Assembly: GCA_022652545.1 (NCBI GenBank)
Contig: JALCRM010000002.1
Span: 1 to 64,000, forward strand
DNA: 64,000 nucleotides
Reading direction: 5' to 3'
Source: Lachnospiraceae bacterium
GTDB taxonomy: Bacteria; Bacillota; Clostridia; Lachnospirales; Lachnospiraceae
The notes beneath the pieces are model-generated. The model ran no database searches, was not told where the DNA came from, and saw only the letters and a program-made list of their open reading frames with translations. The position numbers and the translations under genes were made by a program. Of this stretch, positions 47,363-62,400 are shown one piece after another; the stretch's first letter is position 1, and each line of letters opens with the position of its first letter.

Positions 47363-48871
47363 ATGGCTGAGATACGAATAGATACAGACAGAGAGACCGG
47401 AAAAAGAAGTGATATGATATACGGTCACTTTCTGGAACATTTTCACAGGCAGGTATATGGCGGTTTATATGATCCGAACAATGCTTTATCAGACGATGAA
47501 GGAATGCGGGAAGATGTAATTGAGGCTATGCGCAGGATAAAAGTTCCGATATTGCGCTGGCCCGGCGGCTGCTTTGCATCCGCATATCACTGGAAGTATG
47601 GCGTGGGACGGAAACGTCAGACGGTATTTGATAAAGCGTGGAGAGTGGAAGAGCCGAATTTATTCGGTACCGATGAATATATCAGCTTGTGCAGAAAAGT
47701 CGGATGTAAGCCATATATTTGTACAAATGCCGGCACTGGTTCCGCTGAGGAAATGTCAGATTGGGTTGAATATTGTAATCTGGCATCGGAAGGAAAGTAT
47801 GCCGGCTGGCGTATAGAAAACGGTAACCCTGACAGCTTTGACGTTAAATACTGGAGCATCGGAAATGAAAATTACGGCAGTTGGGAAATAGGTGCGAAAA
47901 GAGCTGAAGAGTGGCCTTCACTTGTAAAAGAATCAGCAAAAATGATGAAACATGTTGATCCTACGATTGAACTTTCGGCAGCGGCAATCACGGATGTTGA
48001 CTGGACATTGAATCTTATACGTGCATGTGCGCCTTTTCTCGACTGGATTTCTATTCACGAGTATTGGGATATGATGGCGGAAGAGCACAAACCGGCTTCA
48101 TACGACGTGTGTATTAAGTATTGCGAGGATGTGGGACATTCGGTACGAAAGATACGGGGGATATTGGAAACGCTCGGATTGGAAAAGCAGATAAAAGTTG
48201 CTTTTGACGAATGGAATCTTCGAAGCTGGCATCATCCCAATGTTTTGACTGTAAAGCAGGGTATAACGAAAGAAGAGTATATCCTGCCGAGGGATAAAAA
48301 TGATGATAACAGCACCTATACGATGGCAGATGCTGTTTTTGCCGCATGTTTTCTGAATGAAATGAACAGAAACTGTGATCTGGTAGGCATGGCAAATTTT
48401 TCGCCGATCGTCAATACCACCGGCTGCATATACAGCTATCCGGACGGTATCGTGTTAAGAAGCACTTATTATGTATTTGAACTGTATGTGCGCCATCTGG
48501 GCGACATTGTCTTAAATTCATGGACAAAAGACAATGAGGAAGCCGGAATCTGCTGCGCCGATAAAAAGGCTGAAACAGGTGCAATAGATGCGATAGCAAC
48601 AAAATTCAGCGGAAGTGACGGTATAGCGATAGCTGCCGTAAACAAAAGCAAAACAGAACACATTAAAATAGACATAAATATAACTAATAAAAATGAAAAG
48701 ACAGAGAGCAGAAGCGTCCTGCTGAATTATCTCAATGGACCTTCAGCAGATTCCTACAATGATGTCGGAAGAACTGAAATTGAAATAAAGCAAAAATCTT
48801 TTGGAATATTTAAAAATGGCATGAGCATTACATTGGAACCGCATTCTGTCAATATTATTGAAATAAGGTAG
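47363..48871 (+). CDS. Alpha-L-arabinofuranosidase, GH51
   Basis: MIYGHFLEHFHRQVYGGLYDP, ILRWPGGCFASAYHWKYGVG, WSIGNENYGSWEIG acid/base, IKVAFDEWNLRSWHH nucleophile. Confidence 0.96.
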   Translation: MAEIRIDTDRETGKRSDMIYGHFLEHFHRQVYGGLYDPNNALSDDEGMREDVIEAMRRIKVPILRWPGGCFASAYHWKYGVGRKRQTVFDKAWRVEEPNLFGTDEYISLCRKVGCKPYICTNAGTGSAEEMSDWVEYCNLASEGKYAGWRIENGNPDSFDVKYWSIGNENYGSWEIGAKRAEEWPSLVKESAKMMKHVDPTIELSAAAITDVDWTLNLIRACAPFLDWISIHEYWDMMAEEHKPASYDVCIKYCEDVGHSVRKIRGILETLGLEKQIKVAFDEWNLRSWHHPNVLTVKQGITKEEYILPRDKNDDNSTYTMADAVFAACFLNEMNRNCDLVGMANFSPIVNTTGCIYSYPDGIVLRSTYYVFELYVRHLGDIVLNSWTKDNEEAGICCADKKAETGAIDAIATKFSGSDGIAIAAVNKSKTEHIKIDINITNKNEKTESRSVLLNYLNGPSADSYNDVGRTEIEIKQKSFGIFKNGMSITLEPHSVNIIEIR

Positions 48872-49077
48872 CATGGTATTTATGGGGTGCTACTTCAAAG
48901 AAGCCGGATCATTGCTGGATGATTTATAACAATATACAGCGTATAGGGGCTCTCATTAAAGGTGCAGATTATTGCGTCAGAGTGGATGCATTTAATGAAA
49001 ACGGGATTACAGAGGGCACAATTACCCATATTGGCTATGCAGTGACGAATACTGGCTTAGACAATAATAAATACTAA
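48862..49077 (+). pseudogene. Remnant of a C-terminal glycoside-hydrolase-associated domain
   Basis: Open frame without plausible start: NKVAWYLWGATSKKPDHCWMIYNNIQRIGALIKGADYCVRVDAFNENGITEGTITHIGYAVTNTGLDNNKY*. Confidence 0.5.
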
Positions 49078-49376
49078 GCTGAGTTAATCTTAACGATTGT
49101 TTGAAAATGAAATTACATTAAGCCCTCATGATGGATTAGTCAGATCCTGATTCACAGAGATGTTATTTACAGAAAAACAGTGATATAAGAAACACCTTAT
49201 ATGATTGGAAAATAAAGAATTGACAGCAAGGATGTAATATAGTTCGGTGAAGCTGAAAATAACCCTTTAAGGATGAAAAATATTCTTGACACATTAGGGT
49301 GGTAAATGTACAACTATAGTAAGTTAAGATAATTAAGTAAGTCAATGAGACAACATCGCTCAAGAAGGAGGAATAA

Positions 49377-50546
49377 TTGAATAGTTTTTCATATTATGCT
49401 CCCACTAAGATCTTATTTGGTTTGGGATCAGTCAATCAGATAGGAAAAGAAGCTAAAGCATTCGGGAGAAAGGCACTTTTAGTTCACGGGAGTAATAAGT
49501 CCTCGCATTCTTCAATATATGAAAATATAAAAAAGGTACTTGTGGATAGTGGAATAGAAGTGTCTGATTTTGATGGCGTACTTCCAAATCCCACAACAGA
49601 AGTTGTAACTGCAGGTGCCCTAATTGCTAAAGAAAATAAGGCGGATATGGTAATTGGCATAGGCGGCGGATCGGCCATGGATACTGCAAAAGCAATTGCT
49701 GTAGAATCGACACATCGTGGCACGGCATTTGATTATCTGTTTTATACGGATGGGCCTACCTGCAAGACGCTGCCAATTATTGCAGTCGGAACAACTGCTG
49801 GGACAGGATCACAGGTAACACCGTGTTCGGTAATTACAAATACAAAAGATAAAAACAAATCAGCGATATGGAATGCTAACATATTTCCAAAAGTTGCAAT
49901 AGTAGACCCGGTTTTGACAGCCTCTATGCCCGTAAATGTAACAGCGCAAACTGGATTTGATGCATTTTGCCATAATTTTGAGGCCTATATTTCAAGAAAT
50001 ACGAATCCCCTTGTTGAGGCAATGGCAATTGATGCAATCAAAATTATAGCTAAACAGCTTCCAATTGTGATAAGAGACGGCCAAAATATGGAAGCACGAT
50101 CTCAAATGGCATGGGCAGATACACTCGGCGGATTGACCAATGCTTCCGGAGGCGTAACATTGCCCCACGGGCTTGGAATGCAAGTGGGAGGACATTGCCC
50201 GAATGTCACACATGGACAATCGCTTGCTATTATATATCCACAATTCATGAGATTTACTTGGAAAGCATCAATTCAGAAATTCGCAACTGTCGGACGTATT
50301 TTTAATCCGAAATTGTGTCAGGAACCAGATGAAGTTGCTGCAGAAATGAGCTGTATAGCCATAGATGATTTTTTAAAAGAAATTGGATTGTGGATTGGTT
50401 TCAAAGATCTCGGCGTTTCAAATGATGAAATATATGAGATTGCTGAATGCGGTCATGTTTTAAACGATTATAAAAACAATCCAAGAGTAGCAACTATTGA
50501 AGAAATGCATGAACTTTTAAAAGCGTGTTATGAACGAACTGAGTAA
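49377..50546 (+). CDS. Iron-containing alcohol dehydrogenase
   Basis: PTKILFGLGSVNQIG, GIGGGSAMDTAKAIA, AVGTTAGTGSQVTP, HGLGMQVGGHCPNVTHGQ; TTG start after AAGGAGG. Confidence 0.93.
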   Translation: MNSFSYYAPTKILFGLGSVNQIGKEAKAFGRKALLVHGSNKSSHSSIYENIKKVLVDSGIEVSDFDGVLPNPTTEVVTAGALIAKENKADMVIGIGGGSAMDTAKAIAVESTHRGTAFDYLFYTDGPTCKTLPIIAVGTTAGTGSQVTPCSVITNTKDKNKSAIWNANIFPKVAIVDPVLTASMPVNVTAQTGFDAFCHNFEAYISRNTNPLVEAMAIDAIKIIAKQLPIVIRDGQNMEARSQMAWADTLGGLTNASGGVTLPHGLGMQVGGHCPNVTHGQSLAIIYPQFMRFTWKASIQKFATVGRIFNPKLCQEPDEVAAEMSCIAIDDFLKEIGLWIGFKDLGVSNDEIYEIAECGHVLNDYKNNPRVATIEEMHELLKACYERTE

Positions 50547-50556
50547 TGAAATGAAA

Positions 50557-50606
50557 TAAAAAGATTGCAATCTATACCGTAATGGTATAGACTGCAATCT
50601 TTTTTA
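50557..50606. terminator. Bidirectional terminator between convergent ADH and ROK genes
   Basis: AAAAAGATTGCAaTCTATACC-gtaat-GGTATAGAcTGCAATCTTTTTT. Confidence 0.92.
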
Positions 50607-50608
50607 TA

Positions 50609-51820
50609 TCAGCGGATCATTTCTCCACCCTTTTTAATCAACTCATCAAGAAGAAAGGTTGCAGCACCGATGGAAGCACAGTAAATTCCTAACTTAGAGA
50701 TCACTATATCACACTTCTTAACGGGCATCACATGATGGTTGACTTCTTCAATTAGAGGGCTCAAAAGCAGATCACCTGCACGACTGACACCACCTTCAAG
50801 GATAATAATTGCTGGATCAATAAAATTAATGGCGCTTCCTATAGCAGAGCCTAAATATACAATAGCCTGGTGCAGTATGGTATTTGCCAACGGGTCACCA
50901 GCGGCAGCAGCTTCAAAAATTATTTTCGCGTCAATCTTTTTCAAATCTCCCTGGACCATAGAAGATATCATTGATACCGCACCGCTTTTTATGGCTGCTT
51001 GAGCTTGCTTTGAGATAGCGTTTGCTGAAGCAACAGCCTCAAGACAACCATAGTTTCCACAACTGCATTTGGGACCATTCTGCTCAACTATTACATGTCC
51101 CAATTCTCCGCTTGCGCCACTGTCACCATTATATATTCTGTGGTTAATTACTATTGCTGATCCGATGCCATAGCCAAGATTAACGCAAATATAGTTATTT
51201 ATATTATGCCCTAATCCAAAATACAACTCACCCATGGCCATTGATTTCGTAACATTGTTTATACGCATCGGAAGATTGAAGTGCTGTCTTAACTCTTTTA
51301 GAAGATCCTTATCTTTCCAGCCAAAGGCCGGCGAGAGGAGAATCTTACCACTTTCGGGTGATATAACTCCGGGCATGCCAATCCCAATTCCCAAAATCTG
51401 AGCGATATCAATCTTTGATGTAGCTATAATCTTATCTATACAATACACAACCTGTGCAACGACCTCATTAAAATGTCTCTCAGCGGAGGTCGGCTGTTGA
51501 TAGGAGCTTAGCATATTTGCATCCAAGTCCATTAAAATGACGTTGATATTGGTTGTTCCAATATCGATTCCAATTATGTACATTGAGTCACCGGCAAAGG
51601 ATAGAAGACGAGGCGGTTTGCCGCCTGTAGACTTGGCAATTTCACCTTCTATAACAAGACCTTTAGAGATTAGGCTATCAGTAATCTTCATAACCGTAGG
51701 AATGCTGAGATTGGTTATGCGTGAAATTTCTGCTCTATAGATTGGCGATTTCTCTCTTATTATATCCAGAATAGTGCTTTTATTTACTAGAGACATAATA
51801 GACTTATCCATGCGGTCCAT
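50609..51820 (-). CDS. ROK-family transcriptional regulator (NagC/XylR type)
   Basis: HTH IYRAEISRITNLSIPTVMKITDSLISKGLV; GIDIGTTNINVILMDL; ROK motif CSCGNYGCLEAVAS. Confidence 0.94.
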   Translation of the reverse strand: MDRMDKSIMSLVNKSTILDIIREKSPIYRAEISRITNLSIPTVMKITDSLISKGLVIEGEIAKSTGGKPPRLLSFAGDSMYIIGIDIGTTNINVILMDLDANMLSSYQQPTSAERHFNEVVAQVVYCIDKIIATSKIDIAQILGIGIGMPGVISPESGKILLSPAFGWKDKDLLKELRQHFNLPMRINNVTKSMAMGELYFGLGHNINNYICVNLGYGIGSAIVINHRIYNGDSGASGELGHVIVEQNGPKCSCGNYGCLEAVASANAISKQAQAAIKSGAVSMISSMVQGDLKKIDAKIIFEAAAAGDPLANTILHQAIVYLGSAIGSAINFIDPAIIILEGGVSRAGDLLLSPLIEEVNHHVMPVKKCDIVISKLGIYCASIGAATFLLDELIKKGGEMIR

Positions 51821-51949
51821 TTCACGAACACCTCACCTTTTTTTAAAAATAATACATCAGAATATAAGCAATATCAGTCATATGCCAGCAATATTGTTTA
51901 CAATGTTTAGCTTCCGAAGGTATGCATTTACACGCTAAGCTGTTTGAGG

Positions 51950-53521
51950 TTAATGTTTGTTCCTGAATGTGGATGGTGTACATCCAACAATCTTTTTGAA
52001 TGTAGTATTGAAATAGGCAAGGGAATTAAACCCCACTTTTTCTGATATTTCATATAACTTTAAATTTGTGTTAAGGAGATATTCCTTGGCTTTTCCAATA
52101 CGATACTGATTAATATAATTTGGAATGCTTGTTCCGACATTTTTATTAAAAATGCGGCTAAGGTATGTTTCGCTTACCTCCAAAGAATCTGCAATATTAC
52201 TGACGGAAATATCATTCACATAGTTTTTGTTAATAAATTGAATCGTCTGCTTGGATAAGTAATCAATTTGTTCGATCTTGTCTAGCTGAAAGCTATAAAA
52301 TATTTCTGAATCAAATAGTTTATTTAGGGCTTCAAAAGTTTCACAGGAATTTATTTTTTCTATTGTAAGCTTATCCACTGTCTGATTATTAGTGTGGATG
52401 CTTCTTGCAATTCCAATATATAAGCTCTTTATCTGTTCCGGGAATAGCAGAGGAAGTTTTTTGTATTTTAGGCATAAATCAGGAATATCCGATAGATAAT
52501 TGCGTAAGCTCTTATAACCATTTATATCGCAATAGAGGAATAACTGATTTGCAATATTATTGTATTGCTCTTGCGTACAAAAATCATAACATTTATCTTT
52601 GTAAAAAATAATTTCTTCTTTTGGATTATAAAAATAAACGATCATGGCATTGATAGCCTGTCGATATGATTCATCAAGAGAAGAAAGACTGTGGAACGGT
52701 GATCCAATGCCAAAGATGATAGAAATATTTAGATAGGTTTTTCCCAATTCGGATAATTTTTCAATTTTCTCTGAAATCATATCCTGGATTTTCCGAGACT
52801 CATCAATATTGGAAAAACTAAGCAATAATATAAACTCGTTTTCTTTATTTCTGAATAATTCTTTAGCTGGGATATCTGAAAGAGCATTTTCAAATATTGT
52901 ACACATAGAAGAAACCAGAAAAGAAATATCATTATTCTGATATCTCCTGATAACGTCACTGAAGTGGGAAATTGCAAAAACAATGCAACAACAGTTTTTT
53001 TCATCAATTGAGATATATTGTGAGAGTTTGACATTCTTATCTATAGTTCCGTTTATTATATGCTTTAGAATATCTTCATGGTAAATAGTGCTTATCTTTT
53101 TGAGATCTCCGGAAATATTTTCGAGATTTAGATTTTTGTTGTCTGTTTGTATTTTGCTTCTTAGCTTGTTGAGGGAATTGATAAGGTTATCATGATTCAG
53201 TGTGTTTTTCAGAATATAATCATCCGCACCGTTAATTAACGCTTCTTTCACCAAATTAAATTCGTCGTGACAACTAAGAACTAGTACTTTTGGAGGATGT
53301 GCCATATCCTTCAGCTTCTTTAGCATCGTGATTCCATCCATTACCGGCATGGTTAAATCAAGGAGAATAATATCAGGCTTGCTCTTCCCTATCAGAGACA
53401 GCGCTTCTTCACCGTCTTCAGCGGAGCCGCACACATGATAATCTGTTGCATTTTCAAGTAAATGCACTATTTCGACGCGCATAAGTAATTCATCGTCTAC
53501 TACTAAAATGCGAGTTGCCAT
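51950..53521 (-). CDS. Response regulator with C-terminal AraC-type DNA-binding domain (YesN-like)
   Basis: RILVVDDELLMRVEI, DIILLDLTMPVMDGI; VSNIADSLEVSETYLSRIFNKNVGTSIPNYINQYRIGKAKEYLLNTNLKLYEISEKVGFNSLAYFNTTFKKIVGCTPSTFR. Confidence 0.95.
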   Translation of the reverse strand: MATRILVVDDELLMRVEIVHLLENATDYHVCGSAEDGEEALSLIGKSKPDIILLDLTMPVMDGITMLKKLKDMAHPPKVLVLSCHDEFNLVKEALINGADDYILKNTLNHDNLINSLNKLRSKIQTDNKNLNLENISGDLKKISTIYHEDILKHIINGTIDKNVKLSQYISIDEKNCCCIVFAISHFSDVIRRYQNNDISFLVSSMCTIFENALSDIPAKELFRNKENEFILLLSFSNIDESRKIQDMISEKIEKLSELGKTYLNISIIFGIGSPFHSLSSLDESYRQAINAMIVYFYNPKEEIIFYKDKCYDFCTQEQYNNIANQLFLYCDINGYKSLRNYLSDIPDLCLKYKKLPLLFPEQIKSLYIGIARSIHTNNQTVDKLTIEKINSCETFEALNKLFDSEIFYSFQLDKIEQIDYLSKQTIQFINKNYVNDISVSNIADSLEVSETYLSRIFNKNVGTSIPNYINQYRIGKAKEYLLNTNLKLYEISEKVGFNSLAYFNTTFKKIVGCTPSTFRNKH

Positions 53522-53535
53522 CTTCTACCTCTTTG

Positions 53536-55317
53536 TCATGAAATAAGTTCACATGGAAGGACGACTGTTATGGCCGTATACTCATTTATCTTGCTTTCTA
53601 TCGATATGCCATAATTTTCTCCGCACATCATCTTAATCCGGTTATTAACATTTTCCAGACCAATATGCTTATGAGCTCTGAACTGCGAGTTTCCTCTTTC
53701 CTGCAGCAATGATTCTTTTACATTTTCTGGTATTCCAATCCCATTGTCTTTTACAGTAATTCGGATTTCATTGCTGTCTGACTCAAAGCCAATGACAATT
53801 TGCTTTTGCCCATCCTTTTTAGAAAATCCGTGAATTATTGAATTCTCTATCAGCGGTTGAAGGATGAAGCGGGGAATTTTTTTCGCCTTTAATTCTTCGG
53901 GGCATATACATTTATAATCGATTTCATTCATATATCGAAAGTTCATGATTGCCATGTAATTATCGATACCGTGGATTTCATCTTCAAGAGGAACAATTTC
54001 AGAGCTCGTATTTAAGCAATATCTTAAAAAGGAAGCAAACTTACCGATTATATTAGAAATAGACAGGGATCCTTGAATTTCTGACATGATTTTTATTGAA
54101 TTCAAGGTGTTATAGATAAAATGAGGGTTGATCTGTGCCTGCAACGCGGACAATTCGGCTTCTCGTTTTTCTTTCTCATTTACTTTGATTTTTGAAATCA
54201 GTTCTCTTACCGATTCACTTAACTGATTGAATGAATGTGCGAGTTGACCGATTTCATCATTACCTTCTTCAGCGTGAATATTGAGGCCGTTCTGCTCTGC
54301 ATCAGAAATGGATTTTTGCAGACTAAGGATTGGAATGGTAATGTACTCGGATGCCTTTTTGGCAGCAAAAGAGATTAATATAAGAGTTAGACAAACAGTA
54401 ATTACACCAGTTATCAATATCATTTTTTGCTCAGAGATAATCTCGTCAACTGGTATTACATTGATTATTCTTATTCCATATTTATCCGGAGCAGTAACAT
54501 TGATTAAGTAAGGACGAATTTTCTGCCAGGATATAAAACGAAAAGAGGCTTTAACGGTCTTTGATTCATTTACGATTCTTTCTTTTACTTTTAAATCAGG
54601 ATCAACATTGTCATGCTGAAAGAAAATATTGTTTTCGCACATAAGAAGATGATAGCTATTATGAGTGATTTGTCCATCATCCCACAGTTCCTGAATTTTA
54701 TCGTTCGTCATATTAATTATAAATACTCCTAATAATTTATCATTATCAAGAGGATCGACCAACGATCTTCCCACAGAAATCGTATCGCTATTGGAATTAA
54801 TTGCAGGATTATTCTGAATACCTATGACAACTATTTTTCCTTTGCTATTTGCAATTTCATCATAAGCGGTAATTTCTTTCGGGCTGTGCTTGCTATAGGG
54901 ATTGCTTGCCACCTGATAAATATAGCCAACATTTTCCGGTATCAAAAATAGAGAATTGATGGAGTCACTTAGGTGGTAGAAGACAGACATGACTTGAATA
55001 ATGTCTCGATAATCCTGATATTTTTCCAATTCTTCTTTGGCACCATAGTCGCTATAATCTTTGCGCAAGTCTGTGGAAATTGATTTATCCAATGTAAAAT
55101 AATTTGAAAGAGAACAGAGAGAATCGATGGAATACTCAACATTTTTCATCGCCTGAGTGTCATTAGAATTGATTAAATTTATTACATGATCTCCAATATA
55201 CCTGATATCAAGGAATAGCAAAATCAGAACAGTTATTACTGATGGAATCAGGACATACCTAAGGATTGCTTTATAGAATTTTGTTTTGATAGATACAAAA
55301 TCGCCGCTGTTTGTCAT
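53536..55317 (-). CDS. Sensor histidine kinase (YesM-like, His_kinase domain)
   Basis: HAMP-like region, LQAQINPHFIYNTLNSIKI phospho-acceptor motif, FILQPLIENSIIHGF, VKDNGIGIPE. Confidence 0.95.
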   Translation of the reverse strand: MTNSGDFVSIKTKFYKAILRYVLIPSVITVLILLFLDIRYIGDHVINLINSNDTQAMKNVEYSIDSLCSLSNYFTLDKSISTDLRKDYSDYGAKEELEKYQDYRDIIQVMSVFYHLSDSINSLFLIPENVGYIYQVASNPYSKHSPKEITAYDEIANSKGKIVVIGIQNNPAINSNSDTISVGRSLVDPLDNDKLLGVFIINMTNDKIQELWDDGQITHNSYHLLMCENNIFFQHDNVDPDLKVKERIVNESKTVKASFRFISWQKIRPYLINVTAPDKYGIRIINVIPVDEIISEQKMILITGVITVCLTLILISFAAKKASEYITIPILSLQKSISDAEQNGLNIHAEEGNDEIGQLAHSFNQLSESVRELISKIKVNEKEKREAELSALQAQINPHFIYNTLNSIKIMSEIQGSLSISNIIGKFASFLRYCLNTSSEIVPLEDEIHGIDNYMAIMNFRYMNEIDYKCICPEELKAKKIPRFILQPLIENSIIHGFSKKDGQKQIVIGFESDSNEIRITVKDNGIGIPENVKESLLQERGNSQFRAHKHIGLENVNNRIKMMCGENYGISIESKINEYTAITVVLPCELIS

Positions 55318-55449
55318 TTTTCTCTCCTCAAGCTACCCATTATAACTGCTCCCCGAAAAAATGTGTATACTGTGCAAAATTGCCGCTTCTAATCCGGCAT
55401 ATGATGACTTAATTTCCAAACGGTCATGACGGAGAGCAGAAAAATTAAA

Positions 55450-55507
55450 AAATTAGCACGAAATTAGAACTTTATGTCCCTAAGAAGTTGCTATATTTTC
55501 TATAGCA
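55450..55507 (+). promoter_or_regulatory. Putative promoter/operator region of the sugar ABC operon
   Basis: Direct repeats AAATTAG at 55450-55456 and 55461-55467 (11-bp spacing); inverted repeat TGCTATA-TTTTC-TATAGCA 55489-55507; weak -35. Confidence 0.45.
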
Positions 55508-55543
55508 CTTATTTTTATTCTCGAAGGGAGGAAGGTACAAAAT

Positions 55544-56869
55544 ATGAAGAAATATTCAGCGGTTTTATTATCAATGGCGGTTGTTGTTTCGTCAATTACT
55601 GGATGCGGGGCTGGGTCAACTGGGCAGGCGACGACCACAACAACTTCTGAAGCAGTGACATCAACGGCAGCAACCTCATCGGAGGCAGCAGTTGCTGCAA
55701 GCACAACGACAAGTGGCGATAGCGGTGATGGTGTAACAATTACTTTCGGTTCATGGGGAAATGATTATGAAATTGAATCATATAAAAAAATGGCCGAAGG
55801 TGTTTCAGATGCTGTTCCGGGAGTAAAAGAAGTCAAGTTTATTACATATGCCAGTACTGACGACTTTTGGAACAATATACCTTCGCAGATGGCGGCAGGG
55901 ACAGCACCGGATCTGATATATCCTACTGATGAAAATGCATATGAGTATATTAGGGGCGGCCTTTATGATGCTATTGACACAAGTTCAATTGATTTGAGCG
56001 ATGTATCAAAAGATGCTCTGAAGGTGTGGACAATAGATGACAAGCTCTATGGTATTCCGCTGACAATGCAGCCTACCTGCTTACTTCTTAACCTTGATCT
56101 GTTTAAACAGTACGGTTTTACAGAAGCAGATTACCCGAAGTCCTGGGATGATGTCAGGAAAATTGCCGAAAAGGTAAGCGATCCGAAAAATAATTTCTAT
56201 GGGCTTTGCTTATACATGGAGAACCCCTTCCACTTTACGCAGGTGCTGCAGGGATTCGGCGGAAGCTGGGGAAACGGCAAGACAATTGACAGCGAGAAAA
56301 ATGAAGAGGCCCTTCAGTGGGCTATTGATATGTTTAAAGATGGACTTGCTGTGAGTCCGACGCAGCTTGGTGATCATTGGGACGGTGAAACCTTTGCGGC
56401 AAATAAGTGTCTTATGACTACTGGCGGTGTTTGGTATTATGGACAGATGCAGTCTGCTGCTCCAAAAACCAATTATATAGCTCTTCCGATTCCGCAACAG
56501 GATTGGGATACTCCAGCTTGCTCTCTTCATTCCAGCGCATTAGTGATATTAAAGAATTGCCAACATAAAGACTTAGCATCAAAGGTAGCGGCATATATGG
56601 CCAGAAAAGACGCACAGAAAATTAACACGGACGCTTCAGGAGCAATACCGTCTAATCCGGAATTAAAGGAGGAGTACTTTAAGTCACATACTCAGTTTAC
56701 ACAATTGGATGGGGCGGAAAAATATGCTGTATCTTTCGGGTATCCTTCAAAAACGACAGAGTTTGAAACAGATTTTGTAAATGCGGTAACTGCCGTAATC
56801 TATGATTCCACGAATAATACATCAGCTAAGGATATTTTGTCACAGCTTCAGTCGCAGTATGGCGAATAA
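55544..56869 (+). CDS. CUT1 sugar ABC transporter substrate-binding lipoprotein
   Basis: Lipobox SITGCG, TITFGSWGNDYEIESYKKMAEG, IPSQMAAGTAPDLIYPTDENAYEYI. Confidence 0.93.
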   Translation: MKKYSAVLLSMAVVVSSITGCGAGSTGQATTTTTSEAVTSTAATSSEAAVAASTTTSGDSGDGVTITFGSWGNDYEIESYKKMAEGVSDAVPGVKEVKFITYASTDDFWNNIPSQMAAGTAPDLIYPTDENAYEYIRGGLYDAIDTSSIDLSDVSKDALKVWTIDDKLYGIPLTMQPTCLLLNLDLFKQYGFTEADYPKSWDDVRKIAEKVSDPKNNFYGLCLYMENPFHFTQVLQGFGGSWGNGKTIDSEKNEEALQWAIDMFKDGLAVSPTQLGDHWDGETFAANKCLMTTGGVWYYGQMQSAAPKTNYIALPIPQQDWDTPACSLHSSALVILKNCQHKDLASKVAAYMARKDAQKINTDASGAIPSNPELKEEYFKSHTQFTQLDGAEKYAVSFGYPSKTTEFETDFVNAVTAVIYDSTNNTSAKDILSQLQSQYGE

Positions 56870-56881
56870 CGAATACTAATA

Positions 56882-56917
56882 CAAAGGCTCATTCTATTTA
56901 GTACGAGTGAGCCTTTG
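56882..56917 (+). other. Intergenic hairpin between substrate-binding protein and permease genes
   Basis: CAAAGGCTCA-n16-TGAGCCTTTG, no U-tract. Confidence 0.7.
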
Positions 56918-56939
56918 CGAGTTTTATGAGGGACAAGAA

Positions 56940-57841
56940 GTGAAAAAGAAGATTGGAAGAAACGATAAAAAAAGATGGTTGACTGCATATCTGTTCATTT
57001 TACCAGCAGCGATATTTTGGACTTATTGGTTTTTTATACCGGCGTGTGAGTCATTCGGGCTGAGCTTTTTTGAATATAATTATGTTATGCCATTAAACAA
57101 TCATTTTGTTGGATTGAATAACTATATCAAACTGTTTTCAGATAATAATTTCCTTAGGGCAATTCAACACTCACTTACAATAGTCGCGGTTGCAGTTCCT
57201 ATACAAACAATTATATCCTTACTGATGGCTTTGATTATTAATAAAAATTTTAAAGGAAGAGGATTCTTCCGTACATTATTCTATTCTCCATATGTTATTT
57301 CTTCTTTAGCCGTTGCAACAGTATTTATGTATTTGTTTGCTCAAAACCAGCCATTAACAAATTTGTTTTCAAAATTATTTGGGATGGAAAATTCTGCATG
57401 GGCCGTAAATGTAAGATATGCACTTATACTTGTAATACTGATGTACGTTTGGCAACAAGTTGGGTTTTACATGGTTATGTACCTTTCTGGTCTTCAAACA
57501 ATACCAGGGGAGATCAATGAATCAGCCAAGATAGATGGCGCAAGCGGCTTTCAAATTTTTTGGTATATTACGCGCCCCTTATTAAAACCGACAACTTTCC
57601 TGGTCATTACATATGGCGTGATTTCAGCTTTTCAGATATTTGATCAAATTTCTGCAGTTGCCGGTACTGGTGTTTTAGGTACTCCAGGGGGGGGGCACTT
57701 AATACAGTTGTAACCTATTTTTATCTGAATTCCTTTAGATATGGAGAAGTGGGATATGGAAGTGCAGCAGTAATGATATTGTTCTTTGGAATACTTCTGG
57801 TGACGATGGTTCAAAAAAAGTTACTTGATAAGGAAGAATGA
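56940..57841 (+). pseudogene. CUT1 sugar ABC permease (MalF type), frameshifted at a G9 tract
   Basis: ORF ends GTPGGGHLIQL* just after CCAGGGGGGGGGCAC (57687-57695); the +1-shifted frame continues ALNTVVTYFYLNSFRYGEVGYGSAAVMILFFGILLVTMVQKKLLDKEE* to 57841. Confidence 0.88.
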
Positions 57842-57851
57842 AGGTAGGAAT

Positions 57852-58661
57852 ATGAGATTAATTAGAAGAATATTATTTATTATTGTTCTACTTCTGTTTT
57901 CTGTGATTTTTCTTTATCCTCTTATCTATACTGTACAAAATTCGCTTGTTGATTTGAGCGATCTGGGAAAATTCGTTCCTTTGTCAAGACTGACACTAGA
58001 TAACTATATTCTTTTGTTTACTCAATATCCAGTCACCAGGTGGTTTATGAATACGTTAGTCGTAACGATATGCTGCGTGATTAGCCAGATACTTGTTAAC
58101 ACGCTTGCAGGATACGCTTTAGCAAGATTTGATTTCCCCGGGAAAAATGCAATTTTTATTATTGTGCTAGCTTCAATGATGATTCCTTTCCAATTTATTT
58201 TAACACCGGTCTATATCAGGCTGGCACAGTTTAAGTGGAACGATCATTTGATTTCACTAATCGTACCATTTATCTTTCAAAGTTTATTTGTTTTTATGTC
58301 GAGGCAATTCTTTTTGACAATTCCGAAAGAACTCGAGGATGCTGCCAGGGTCGATGGGCTTGGATACGCTGGAACTTTTTTCAAGATCGTACTTCCGATT
58401 TCAGGCCCATTGATTACCTCGATAACTATATTAGCGTTTACTGGTACATGGAATTCATATATGGCGCCATCTACTTTTATGATGACGAGGGAGAGATTCG
58501 TTTTATCTGTTGGCTTGAAAACGGTCCGAGATTTCCAATTTGTAAAAATGAACGTAACGCTCGCCGGAGTAGTATTATTATCTCTTCCAATTTTGGTTAT
58601 GTTTCTATGCCTGCAGAAGCATTTTATGGAAGGTATCGCAACAACCGGTATAAAAGGTTGA
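57852..58661 (+). CDS. CUT1 sugar ABC permease (MalG type)
   Basis: NTLAGYALARFDFPGKNAIF, EAA loop ELEDAARVDGLGYAGTFFKIVLPISGP. Confidence 0.94.
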   Translation: MRLIRRILFIIVLLLFSVIFLYPLIYTVQNSLVDLSDLGKFVPLSRLTLDNYILLFTQYPVTRWFMNTLVVTICCVISQILVNTLAGYALARFDFPGKNAIFIIVLASMMIPFQFILTPVYIRLAQFKWNDHLISLIVPFIFQSLFVFMSRQFFLTIPKELEDAARVDGLGYAGTFFKIVLPISGPLITSITILAFTGTWNSYMAPSTFMMTRERFVLSVGLKTVRDFQFVKMNVTLAGVVLLSLPILVMFLCLQKHFMEGIATTGIKG

Positions 58662-58748
58662 TCTATATGCAATATGCGTCTGATTTAAATTAAGTGCCTG
58701 AGGAAAAATAGGTAGCTTGATCAAAACCACTATTCTCTATAAGACAAA

Positions 58749-61145
58749 ATGGGACGAATGATGAGTAATTCGATTTTATGGTATAAAGAACCAGCACAAT
58801 TCTGGAATGAAGCTTTACCTTTAGGTAATGGGATAATGGGTGCAATGATCTATAGTGACCCAGTTAATGAGAAGATTATGCTTAATAATGAAACTTTATG
58901 GTCAGGATTTCCCAGGGACTACCATAATAATGAGGCATACTCAAATCTTACTAAAGTAAGAGGACTAATATTAGAAGGAAAAGAAAAAGAAGCACAAAAT
59001 ATTATGGAAGCTCACATGCAGGGGAGATTTAATGAATCCTTTTTGCCAATGGGAGAAATTACTATCGGATATGATAAAGAAAAATCGTATACAGGGTATA
59101 AAAGAAAACTTGATTTAGAAACAGCAGTAATATCAAGCTCGTGGACTACATCTAGCGGTGAGAACAGACAAGCGTTATGTTTCATAAGCCAACCGGATAA
59201 TGTTTTGATATATCGTATATCAGGTAAGAGTTTATCATTGAGAATCAATTTAAACAGCTCACTAAAAAATACCGTGTTTTCCGAGGATAATGGATTGTTT
59301 TTGTGTGGGGAAGCGCCGTCTCATGTTGTTCCTCATTATTGGCCTTCTGATAATCCAATTGAATATGGAGATGATTCGCATAAGCACGGAATGAATTTCG
59401 GAATATATGCCACAGTAAATGCAGGACACGGAGACGTGCAAATTGACAATGGAAGTTTATTAATTGCGAATTCTTCAGAAGTCACTGTATCTGTTTATAC
59501 GGAAACAGGATTTGTTGCTTATAACAAATATCCGGGAACCGGTTGGAATGATATATCAAAACAGTTAATTGAACACTGCCAAAAAGTAAATCAGCATAAT
59601 TACGATTCCGTTTTGAAAAATCATATTCGTGAATATCAAAAATACTATTTTGCAAATCAGCTTGTTATTCAAGAGGATTCTATTGAGGAAATACCAACAA
59701 ATGTGAGAGTTATTCACTACCGTGAAACAAAAAAGGATAATGGGCTTATTGCACTTTTATATAATTATGGTAGATATCTATTATTATCTTCCTCGAGAAA
59801 ATGCAATGAACCGGCGAATCTACAAGGAATTTGGAACAAGGAGAATAGACCATATTGGAGTTGTAATTACACTTCTAATATCAATCTTCAGATGAATTAT
59901 TGGCCCGCTGAAGTCTGTAATTTATCAGTTTGCACAATGCCGTTGATTAATTTGATAGAGCAGGTGAGCAGAGACGGTAAAATGACAGCGAATATTCATT
60001 ATGGCTGCCATGGTTGGACTGCGCACCACAATATTGATTTATGGAGACAGGCAATACCGGCAGGAGCTAAAGAAGCTACAACGGGGCTTGCTACCTCTCT
60101 GTTCTGGTGTATGGCAGGTGGTTGGCTTTGCAGGCATCTTTGGGATCATTATTTATTTTCGCTTGACGTGGATTTCCTTCAAAATGAGGCAATGCCTATT
60201 ATTATTGGTGCGGTTGACTTCTATCTGGATTGGATGGTTTTGCTGAAAGACGGCACATATACTACTATTCCGGCATTCTCCCCGGAAAACAGTTACTATA
60301 CAGATAATAAAGAACGTTGCAGCGTATCAGCTGGCAGTACAATGGATCAGCAGATTATTACAGATACATTCAATTATTTTTTGGAAGCTTCAAAAATCTG
60401 TAAATTTGAAAATGGCTCTCAGGCAGGGCAAGAACAAGATAATAGAATCAATAGAGTCAAAGAACATCTTAATAGGATGCGCCCGATTTTATGTGATGAT
60501 CACGGTAGAATATTAGAATGGGAAAAAGAAAGGTTACCGTTTGAGCCGGGGCACAGGCATCAATCTCCTCTATATGGACTTTTTCCGGCATGTTTAATTA
60601 ATGAAAATACTCCGGCACAATTTGAAGCATCAAGAAAATTTTTGGATTGGAAGACGAATAACCACAGCAGTGATTTTGGATGGAGCTTAGCTTGGGTTAT
60701 CTGTTTGTATTCACGTTTGAAAGATAAAGATAAGGTAAATGAAAAAATAAAAATGTTTATTAGTGGTTCAATATATCCAAATCTGTTTACACTTTTCCCG
60801 CCGCTGTCTAAAGAAGAAAAAGAGGTATTTCAGATTGATGCTATTTTTGGCTTTACTGCAGCAATCGCTGAGTGCCTTTTACAGAGCCAAAATGGAGAAC
60901 TCGATGTTCTACCTTGTCTTCCGGCATGCATGAATAGCGGTAAGGTTTTTGGCCTATGTGCCAGAGGCGGATATGTGGTTGACATTGCATGGAAAGATCG
61001 AATGTTGATTAGCCTTTCTATAATGAGCAAGAGCAACAGCATTGTTAAGATCAGGTACCGGGAGATGAAAAAGGAAATTAAGATTAATAAAAATGAGACG
61101 AAAACGATGGATAATAAATTGAAATTGATTAATCGTGATGTATAG
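58749..61145 (+). CDS. GH95 glycoside hydrolase (alpha-L-fucosidase / alpha-L-galactosidase family)
   Basis: WYKEPAQFWNEALPLGNGIMGAMIYSDPVNEKIMLNNETLWSG; NLQGIWNKENRPYWSCNYTSNINLQMNYWPAEVCNLS; GWTAHHNIDLWRQ. Confidence 0.95.
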   Translation: MGRMMSNSILWYKEPAQFWNEALPLGNGIMGAMIYSDPVNEKIMLNNETLWSGFPRDYHNNEAYSNLTKVRGLILEGKEKEAQNIMEAHMQGRFNESFLPMGEITIGYDKEKSYTGYKRKLDLETAVISSSWTTSSGENRQALCFISQPDNVLIYRISGKSLSLRINLNSSLKNTVFSEDNGLFLCGEAPSHVVPHYWPSDNPIEYGDDSHKHGMNFGIYATVNAGHGDVQIDNGSLLIANSSEVTVSVYTETGFVAYNKYPGTGWNDISKQLIEHCQKVNQHNYDSVLKNHIREYQKYYFANQLVIQEDSIEEIPTNVRVIHYRETKKDNGLIALLYNYGRYLLLSSSRKCNEPANLQGIWNKENRPYWSCNYTSNINLQMNYWPAEVCNLSVCTMPLINLIEQVSRDGKMTANIHYGCHGWTAHHNIDLWRQAIPAGAKEATTGLATSLFWCMAGGWLCRHLWDHYLFSLDVDFLQNEAMPIIIGAVDFYLDWMVLLKDGTYTTIPAFSPENSYYTDNKERCSVSAGSTMDQQIITDTFNYFLEASKICKFENGSQAGQEQDNRINRVKEHLNRMRPILCDDHGRILEWEKERLPFEPGHRHQSPLYGLFPACLINENTPAQFEASRKFLDWKTNNHSSDFGWSLAWVICLYSRLKDKDKVNEKIKMFISGSIYPNLFTLFPPLSKEEKEVFQIDAIFGFTAAIAECLLQSQNGELDVLPCLPACMNSGKVFGLCARGGYVVDIAWKDRMLISLSIMSKSNSIVKIRYREMKKEIKINKNETKTMDNKLKLINRDV

Positions 61146-61222
61146 GGGATGCTTTAGCTTACATAATAATATGAATTCATTCACTAATTATTGAATACGA
61201 GTTATAGAAGAGGGAAATATAT

Positions 61223-62275
61223 ATGAGAAATAAAATGAAAGTGGCGATTATGACTGGCCTCATGAAAATGGATTTTACGGAAAGCCCGATTCCTCAACCG
61301 AAAGATGATGAGGCATTGGTGAAAGTTGAGTATGTAGGTGTCTGTGGGTCTGATCTACACTATTATGAGCAAGGAAAAATTGGAAATTATATTGTAAAAC
61401 CTCCCTTCGTACTCGGACATGAAGCAGGTGGCGTTGTCGTAGAAGTTGGTAAAAAGGTGACGAATGTGAAGGTGGGGGACAAGGTTGCTCTGGAACCAGG
61501 TAAAACCTGTGGGCATTGCGAGTTTTGCAGGACAGGCAGATACAATCTTTGTCCGGACGTGCAGTTCTTTGCAACACCACCTGTAGATGGCGTTTTTCAG
61601 GAGTACGTGGCACATGAGGCGGATCTGTGCTTTAAGGTACCAGACAATATGGATACGATGGAGGCGGCTCTTATTGAACCGCTGGCCGTAGGATTCCATG
61701 CTGCGCGCCAAGGAGGCGCCACGGTCGGACAGACAGCAGTCGTTATGGGCGCTGGCTGTATCGGCCTTGTTAGCATGTTAGCAATGAAAGCTATGGGCGT
61801 TAATAACATTTATGTTGTCGATGTCATAGATAAAAGACTCGCAAAGGCAAAGGAACTCGGAGCTACGGAAATAATCAATGGCAAAAATAAAGACGCCGTG
61901 GAGGAAATCATGCGCCTGACAGGCGGAGCAGGAGCGGATCTGATGATTGAAACGGCAGGTACGGAGGTCACATCAAGACAGACTGTTTTTATGGCAAAGA
62001 AGGGCGCGACCATTGTCTTTGTGGGATATTCAAAGTCCGGAGAAATCACATTGCCGATGAGCACGGCACTTGATAAGGAACTGACATTCAAGACAGTTTT
62101 TCGCTATCGACACATTTATCCGCTGGCAATCGATGCCGTGGCCTCAGGTAGAATCAACCTCAAGGGCATTGTGACGAATATCTTTGATTTCGAAGATATC
62201 CAGAATGCCATGGATACCAGCGTGAAAGACAAGGCAAATGTCGTAAAAAGCATTATTAAATTCAGTAAGCAGTGA
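61223..62275 (+). CDS. Zinc-dependent MDR alcohol dehydrogenase, sorbitol/xylitol dehydrogenase-like
   Basis: GVCGSDLHYYEQGKIGNYIVKPPFVLGHEAGGVVVEVG, CGHCEFCRTGRYNLC structural Zn, GAGCIGLVSMLAMKAMG. Confidence 0.94.
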   Translation: MRNKMKVAIMTGLMKMDFTESPIPQPKDDEALVKVEYVGVCGSDLHYYEQGKIGNYIVKPPFVLGHEAGGVVVEVGKKVTNVKVGDKVALEPGKTCGHCEFCRTGRYNLCPDVQFFATPPVDGVFQEYVAHEADLCFKVPDNMDTMEAALIEPLAVGFHAARQGGATVGQTAVVMGAGCIGLVSMLAMKAMGVNNIYVVDVIDKRLAKAKELGATEIINGKNKDAVEEIMRLTGGAGADLMIETAGTEVTSRQTVFMAKKGATIVFVGYSKSGEITLPMSTALDKELTFKTVFRYRHIYPLAIDAVASGRINLKGIVTNIFDFEDIQNAMDTSVKDKANVVKSIIKFSKQ

Positions 62276-62400
62276 AGGTAATTGCAGCAATAATTTGCGT
62301 TTGTCTAAAAATCATCGTAAGTATCAAGGTATCTTGAAACTAGCATAAAATCCCCAGTCATACCAGATATCTGTCATAAAAAATGGGTGCGGGGCCCCGG

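Follow-up and report, generated by a model that had tools for sequence, protein, structure and literature searches.

The locus considered here raises the question of whether a run of nine G residues, which breaks the reading frame of a sugar permease gene, serves a Lachnospiraceae bacterium as a switch for glycan import, or whether the break has a more ordinary origin. The window (the whole stretch of DNA analysed) comprises the first 64,000 nucleotides of contig C2, from an assembly of 2.67 Mb in 27 contigs that is estimated to be 81% complete. The original prediction for this DNA was phase variation at the run. The features surrounding the tract are given below, with identities to homologues in L015, the nearest relative.

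50609–51820, minus strand: ROK-family regulator/kinase (PF00480, E=1e-64).
51950–53521, minus strand: response regulator with an AraC-type HTH (PF00072, PF12833).
53536–55317, minus strand: divergent sensor histidine kinase (PF06580, PF02518, HAMP), syntenic in L015–L019, L021 and L025.
55544–56869, plus strand: extracellular solute-binding lipoprotein of the same transporter, intact (PF13416, E=5e-29; 59% identity to L015).
56940–57713, plus strand: MalF-type (CUT1) sugar ABC permease, truncated (PF00528, E=1e-16, profile positions 2–139 of 184; 71% identity to L015 over 252 residues).
57695–57841, plus strand: displaced permease C-terminus (tblastn, 68% identity to L015 over 47 residues, E=6e-19).
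57852–58661, plus strand: MalG-type sugar ABC permease, intact (PF00528, E=2e-13; 63% identity to L015).
58749–61145, plus strand: GH95-family glycosidase (alpha-L-fucosidase family), intact (PF22124, E=1e-134; PF14498).
61223–62275, plus strand: zinc-type sugar-alcohol dehydrogenase, intact (PF08240, PF00107).

All genes of the operon other than the MalF-type permease were intact, and the kinase, AraC-type regulator, binding protein and two permeases occur in the same order in L015. Given that a GH95 glycosidase accompanies sugar transport in the operon, the imported substrate is probably a fucosylated glycan. The GC content at 48–60 kb was 0.35–0.39, compared with about 0.54 for contig C2, and an AT-rich glycan-utilisation island spans window positions 48000–62300. 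No tRNA was found in the 64-kb window.

Direct reading of the window placed the frame break at a G9 homopolymer (57687–57695, plus strand). In its context (CCA GGG GGG GGG CAC TTA ATA CAG TTG TAA), translation meets a stop at 57711–57713 and the truncated product ends ...PGGGHLIQL; the position and codon reading of the original prediction, including the TAA, were exact when re-read. From 57695, a second frame (GCA CTT AAT ...), which is −1 relative to the truncated part, remains open until a TGA at 57839–57841. It encodes ALNTVVTYFYLNSFRYGEVGYGSAAVMILFFGILLVTMVQKKLLDKEE, a stretch of 48 residues that includes the last membrane helix and aligns with the C-termini of homologous MalF-type permeases, as anticipated in the proposal that the permease goes on to 57841 in another frame. 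The GTG start at 56940 was chosen by alignment. Upstream of the break, a PF00528 domain and an EAA-type loop (ESAKIDGAS...ITRPLLKP) identify the gene as a CUT1-type permease. The truncated product lacks the complete domain with its last helix, the remainder (after profile position 139 of 184) being in the other frame. Runs of either 7 or 10 Gs rejoin the two frames, again as predicted, and homologue lengths fit 7. The tract lies about 83% of the way along the permease reading frame, in its 3' part and away from the 5' end. Given no prior hint, a frame-aware HMM that had learned the codon usage of this genome placed the switch of coding frame at 57688/57689 and called 57689–57838 as coding over the displaced C-terminus. 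Because the switch was found unaided, the permease frame break is not due to chance.

The run itself was less exceptional than the break. Across the whole window, 0.58 G9 matches were expected and at least one was present in 31 of 100 dinucleotide shuffles; G9 on its own is therefore unremarkable window-wide. The claim that the run stands out in its AT-rich surroundings holds for the island, where the first-order expectation was 0.02, but not for the window as a whole. At the genome scale, G/C runs of at least 7 were depleted about 20-fold relative to a first-order Markov model (11 observed against 211 expected over 1.95 Mb scanned). Only four runs of at least 8 occurred in the 2.67-Mb assembly: the permease G9, a G12 on contig C1, a G8 in lpd (C4:156424, in frame) and a G8 in a kinase gene. 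The G12 (C1:255671–255682) is the longest run in the assembly, where the same model expects 0.2, and is located between divergent genes for an MFS-type transporter and a solute-binding protein. This run may influence the spacing of promoters, or it may be an artefact of repeats.

We assessed the ancestral length of the tract from homologues. The best homologue came from a Lachnospiraceae bin (family sample of more than 330 genera). In L015 the loop reads GSPGNALNT, which matches GTPGGALNT in the window once the run is set at 7 Gs, and other close homologues are spaced alike. Judged by this spacing, the G7 equivalent is the family length, and the G9 reads as a gain of two, or as a loss of one from a G10 form that encodes an extra glycine. 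The loop that holds the site precedes the last helix, and related permeases have a Gly-rich element there (MTGGGP in L024). Comparison of tract conservation at homologous loci had been proposed as a check on phase variation, and it went against that reading: none of the 12 homologues carried a G-tract at the permease site, and a search of 397 family genomes for the MTGGGP loop with 8 or 9 Gs found none. A protein search of those 397 genomes for a close orthologue reached 51% identity at best, and among 61 other genomes of the genus we found neither the same DNA in other species nor a close orthologue. Identity to L015 was similar on the two sides of the break (68% over the displaced 48 codons downstream, 71% upstream). 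Changes at codon positions 1/2/3 numbered 14/5/27 downstream and 59/35/171 upstream, a small sample in which third positions dominate. As the C-terminal frame is stop-free, conserved and changed mostly at third positions, the comparison suggests that the break is young and does not suggest decay of the displaced codons.

We questioned whether the permease was the only gene of its genome broken in this way. The scan for frame switches covered 1.95 Mb of the 2.67 Mb (73%) and recovered three clear homopolymer breaks, each with extra Gs at glycine codons: the permease G9, a PAS/hybrid histidine kinase split at a G8 (C5:22051–22058, minus strand; in frame with 7 Gs, PEGGKVDF) and a GH3 beta-glycosidase split at a G6 (C2:275217; in frame with 5 Gs, AFTKG-VQGKVID). 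The kinase fragments carry HisKA on one piece and HATPase/receiver domains on the other. A further candidate at C1:494737 was rejected, its translations indicating an overlapping gene start. With extra-G breaks at G6 and G8 as well, the permease tract is not distinct from the general homopolymer breaks of this genome, and since the GH3 break at G6 is unlike a contingency locus, the three together suggest a generic G-insertion bias, through slippage or G over-calling, rather than a special switch. None of the 298 A/T runs of at least 7 in the scanned 1.95 Mb broke a gene. The difference between G/C and A/T runs of at least 6 (Fisher p=0.0004) was computed post hoc and, with A/T runs more often intergenic, serves as a guide only.

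The over-calling side of this bias leads to the alternative that the tract is really G7 (or G10), the permease is intact and the G9 is an assembly or sequencing error, which we regard as a credible, if lesser, possibility. The assembly is incomplete and in pieces, and its three homopolymer breaks all carry extra Gs. In the GeneTack study, lone frame breaks in genes with homologues were attributed to sequencing errors or indel mutations (PMC3711429). Artefact-like breaks also occur within the genus. A run of at least 9 Gs was present in 40 of 62 genomes, and 84 such tracts were classified from fetched stretches: 48 were intergenic, 20 lay inside coding calls (in some cases short, doubtful ones), 10 at gene edges and five at frame switches, and one was unclassified. 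All five frame-switch tracts (L086, L119, L121, L122, L123) were in one assembly, G001, where four of the five adjoin N gaps and the genes hit include the essential-type ffh and dxr. With ffh and dxr broken beside scaffold gaps, that assembly is unreliable at poly-G, and its breaks probably form a class of assembly artefacts. The genome under study is cleaner, which argues against error: the scanned 1.95 Mb had no Ns, was 94% coding and showed hardly any further frame breaks, its long A/T runs were undamaged and the lpd G8 is in frame. The three broken genes are accessory rather than core. Moreover, an error would have to be a two-base over-call, or one-base under-calls combined with +1 over-calls elsewhere. 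Within the 73% of the genome covered by the scan, we saw no homopolymer break in an essential gene.

Evolved phase variation would make the tract a contingency locus, with the glycan importer on at G7 or G10 and off at G8 or G9 through slipped-strand mispairing. What recommends it is that a long G-run sits exactly at the frame break, that its length alters the frame (out at G9, in at 7 or 10) and that the alternative frame is preserved. Reversible homopolymer breaks are also documented in metabolic and transport genes, among them glpK 7C (described in PMC9765434) and p78 (cited in PMC2831843). In G001, a sugar-binding protein gene (L086) is broken at a G9 with no adjoining gap, a parallel that the quality of that assembly undermines; we set it aside as an independent second sugar-ABC case on account of the gap-adjacent breaks in ffh and dxr. 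A contingency gene is expected to show its tract conserved or recurrent in orthologues, with varying length, but we saw no such tract in the 12 homologues, no 8- or 9-G MTGGGP loop in the 397 family genomes and no close orthologue in the 61 other genomes of the genus, and frame switches at G9 or longer across the genus were confined to G001. The tract is located towards the 3' end of the permease gene, the G6 run of the sister break is too short for a switch and the mismatch-repair genes are intact. Overall, a contingency locus is unlikely here. The frameshift with its intact alternative C-terminal frame stands from the original prediction; the switching mechanism is not supported, given the tract-free homologues, the 3' position, the G6 and G8 breaks elsewhere, the rarity of breaks in relatives and the presence of mismatch-repair genes. 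A broader version is more doubtful still: in it, a commensal bacterium would phase-vary the import of a fucosylated host glycan through the permease poly-G, and the kinase G8, the GH3 G6 and the intergenic G12 would also act as contingency loci. In the GeneTack survey, singleton breaks were put down to probable indel mutations or sequencing errors, and phase variation or other conserved mechanisms were considered for clustered ones (PMC3711429); in those terms the permease break is a singleton.

Recoding, whereby −1 ribosomal (or transcriptional) slippage on the G-run would let the G9 allele yield some full-length permease, could in principle reconcile the two frames, since the displaced frame is −1 and G GGG GGG is formally slippery. 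However, the downstream RNA fold was ordinary (z = −0.97, with 28 of 200 shuffles folding equally well or better), and all 12 homologues read in one frame, with no programmed or other shift kept among them. The family-conserved pairing of slippery site and stimulatory structure that marks programmed −1 frameshifting is therefore absent from this site and these homologues. With no downstream structure and no shifted homologue, recoding is the least likely of the explanations and very improbable.

The explanation we favour, at about even chances, is a recent, lineage-specific G-insertion frameshift in a glycine-coding G-run of the CUT1 permease, with slippage as the most likely cause. Two adjacent glycines of a conserved loop (Pro-Gly-Gly-Ala), both encoded by GGG and followed by GCA, would have produced a G7, which replication slippage may have extended to G9. 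Translation would then end five codons past the run, removing the last transmembrane helix, and the importer is expected to be non-functional in the sequenced lineage. As only the tract length would have changed, the defect could revert by further slippage. This account agrees with the G7 length of homologues, the conserved, stop-free C-terminal frame, the intact operon neighbours, the extra-G breaks at glycine codons in the kinase and GH3 genes and the accessory status of the broken genes, as expected of real, tolerated mutations. Against a simple mutation, G9 needs a gain of two (or a loss of one from G10), which is less simple than a gain of one, and G over-calling in the assembly could give the same extra-G pattern. 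The mutS and mutL genes are present with open reading frames intact, so slippage should be rare; for the same reason a mutator effect through loss of mismatch repair was rejected as the cause. We saw no sign that the tract is maintained as a switch.

Should the allele be a real, revertible slippage mutant, glycan uptake would vary between individual cells of a single species. An assembly slip would be a warning that G-runs give rise to false pseudogenes in metagenome-type assemblies. In either case, the recurrence of extra-G breaks in the genome, together with poly-G breaks that hit unbreakable genes in the sister assembly, provides a useful control.

The frame break is real in the assembly, and it is ordinary and already known in kind. 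Like CUT1 importers with a divergent two-component regulator (such as L015), the locus has a binding protein, two permeases, a kinase and an AraC-type regulator in the same order; those homologues differ in having an intact permease and no G-tract, whereas the window operon adds a GH95 enzyme. It resembles the GeneTack singletons (PMC3711429) in being a single-genome break with intact homologues, but here the genome has two other extra-G breaks, which point to a common G-insertion bias. Poly-A phase variation of p78, in an ABC transporter operon of Mycoplasma fermentans, is experimentally established (cited in PMC2831843 and PMC3711429). There a gene of an ABC transporter operon is likewise inactivated by a change in homopolymer length, but p78 encodes a surface lipoprotein and has its poly-A close to the 5' end, while the present poly-G lies towards the 3' end in a permease gene. 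The glpK 7C tract of Mycobacterium tuberculosis is reversible and occurs at several lengths in cultures and clinical strains (Safi et al. 2019, as described in PMC9765434), unlike the permease, which is known from one assembled allele. The two are alike in that a frameshift set by homopolymer length inactivates a gene for carbon-source uptake or metabolism, in a genome that is not specialised in contingency loci.
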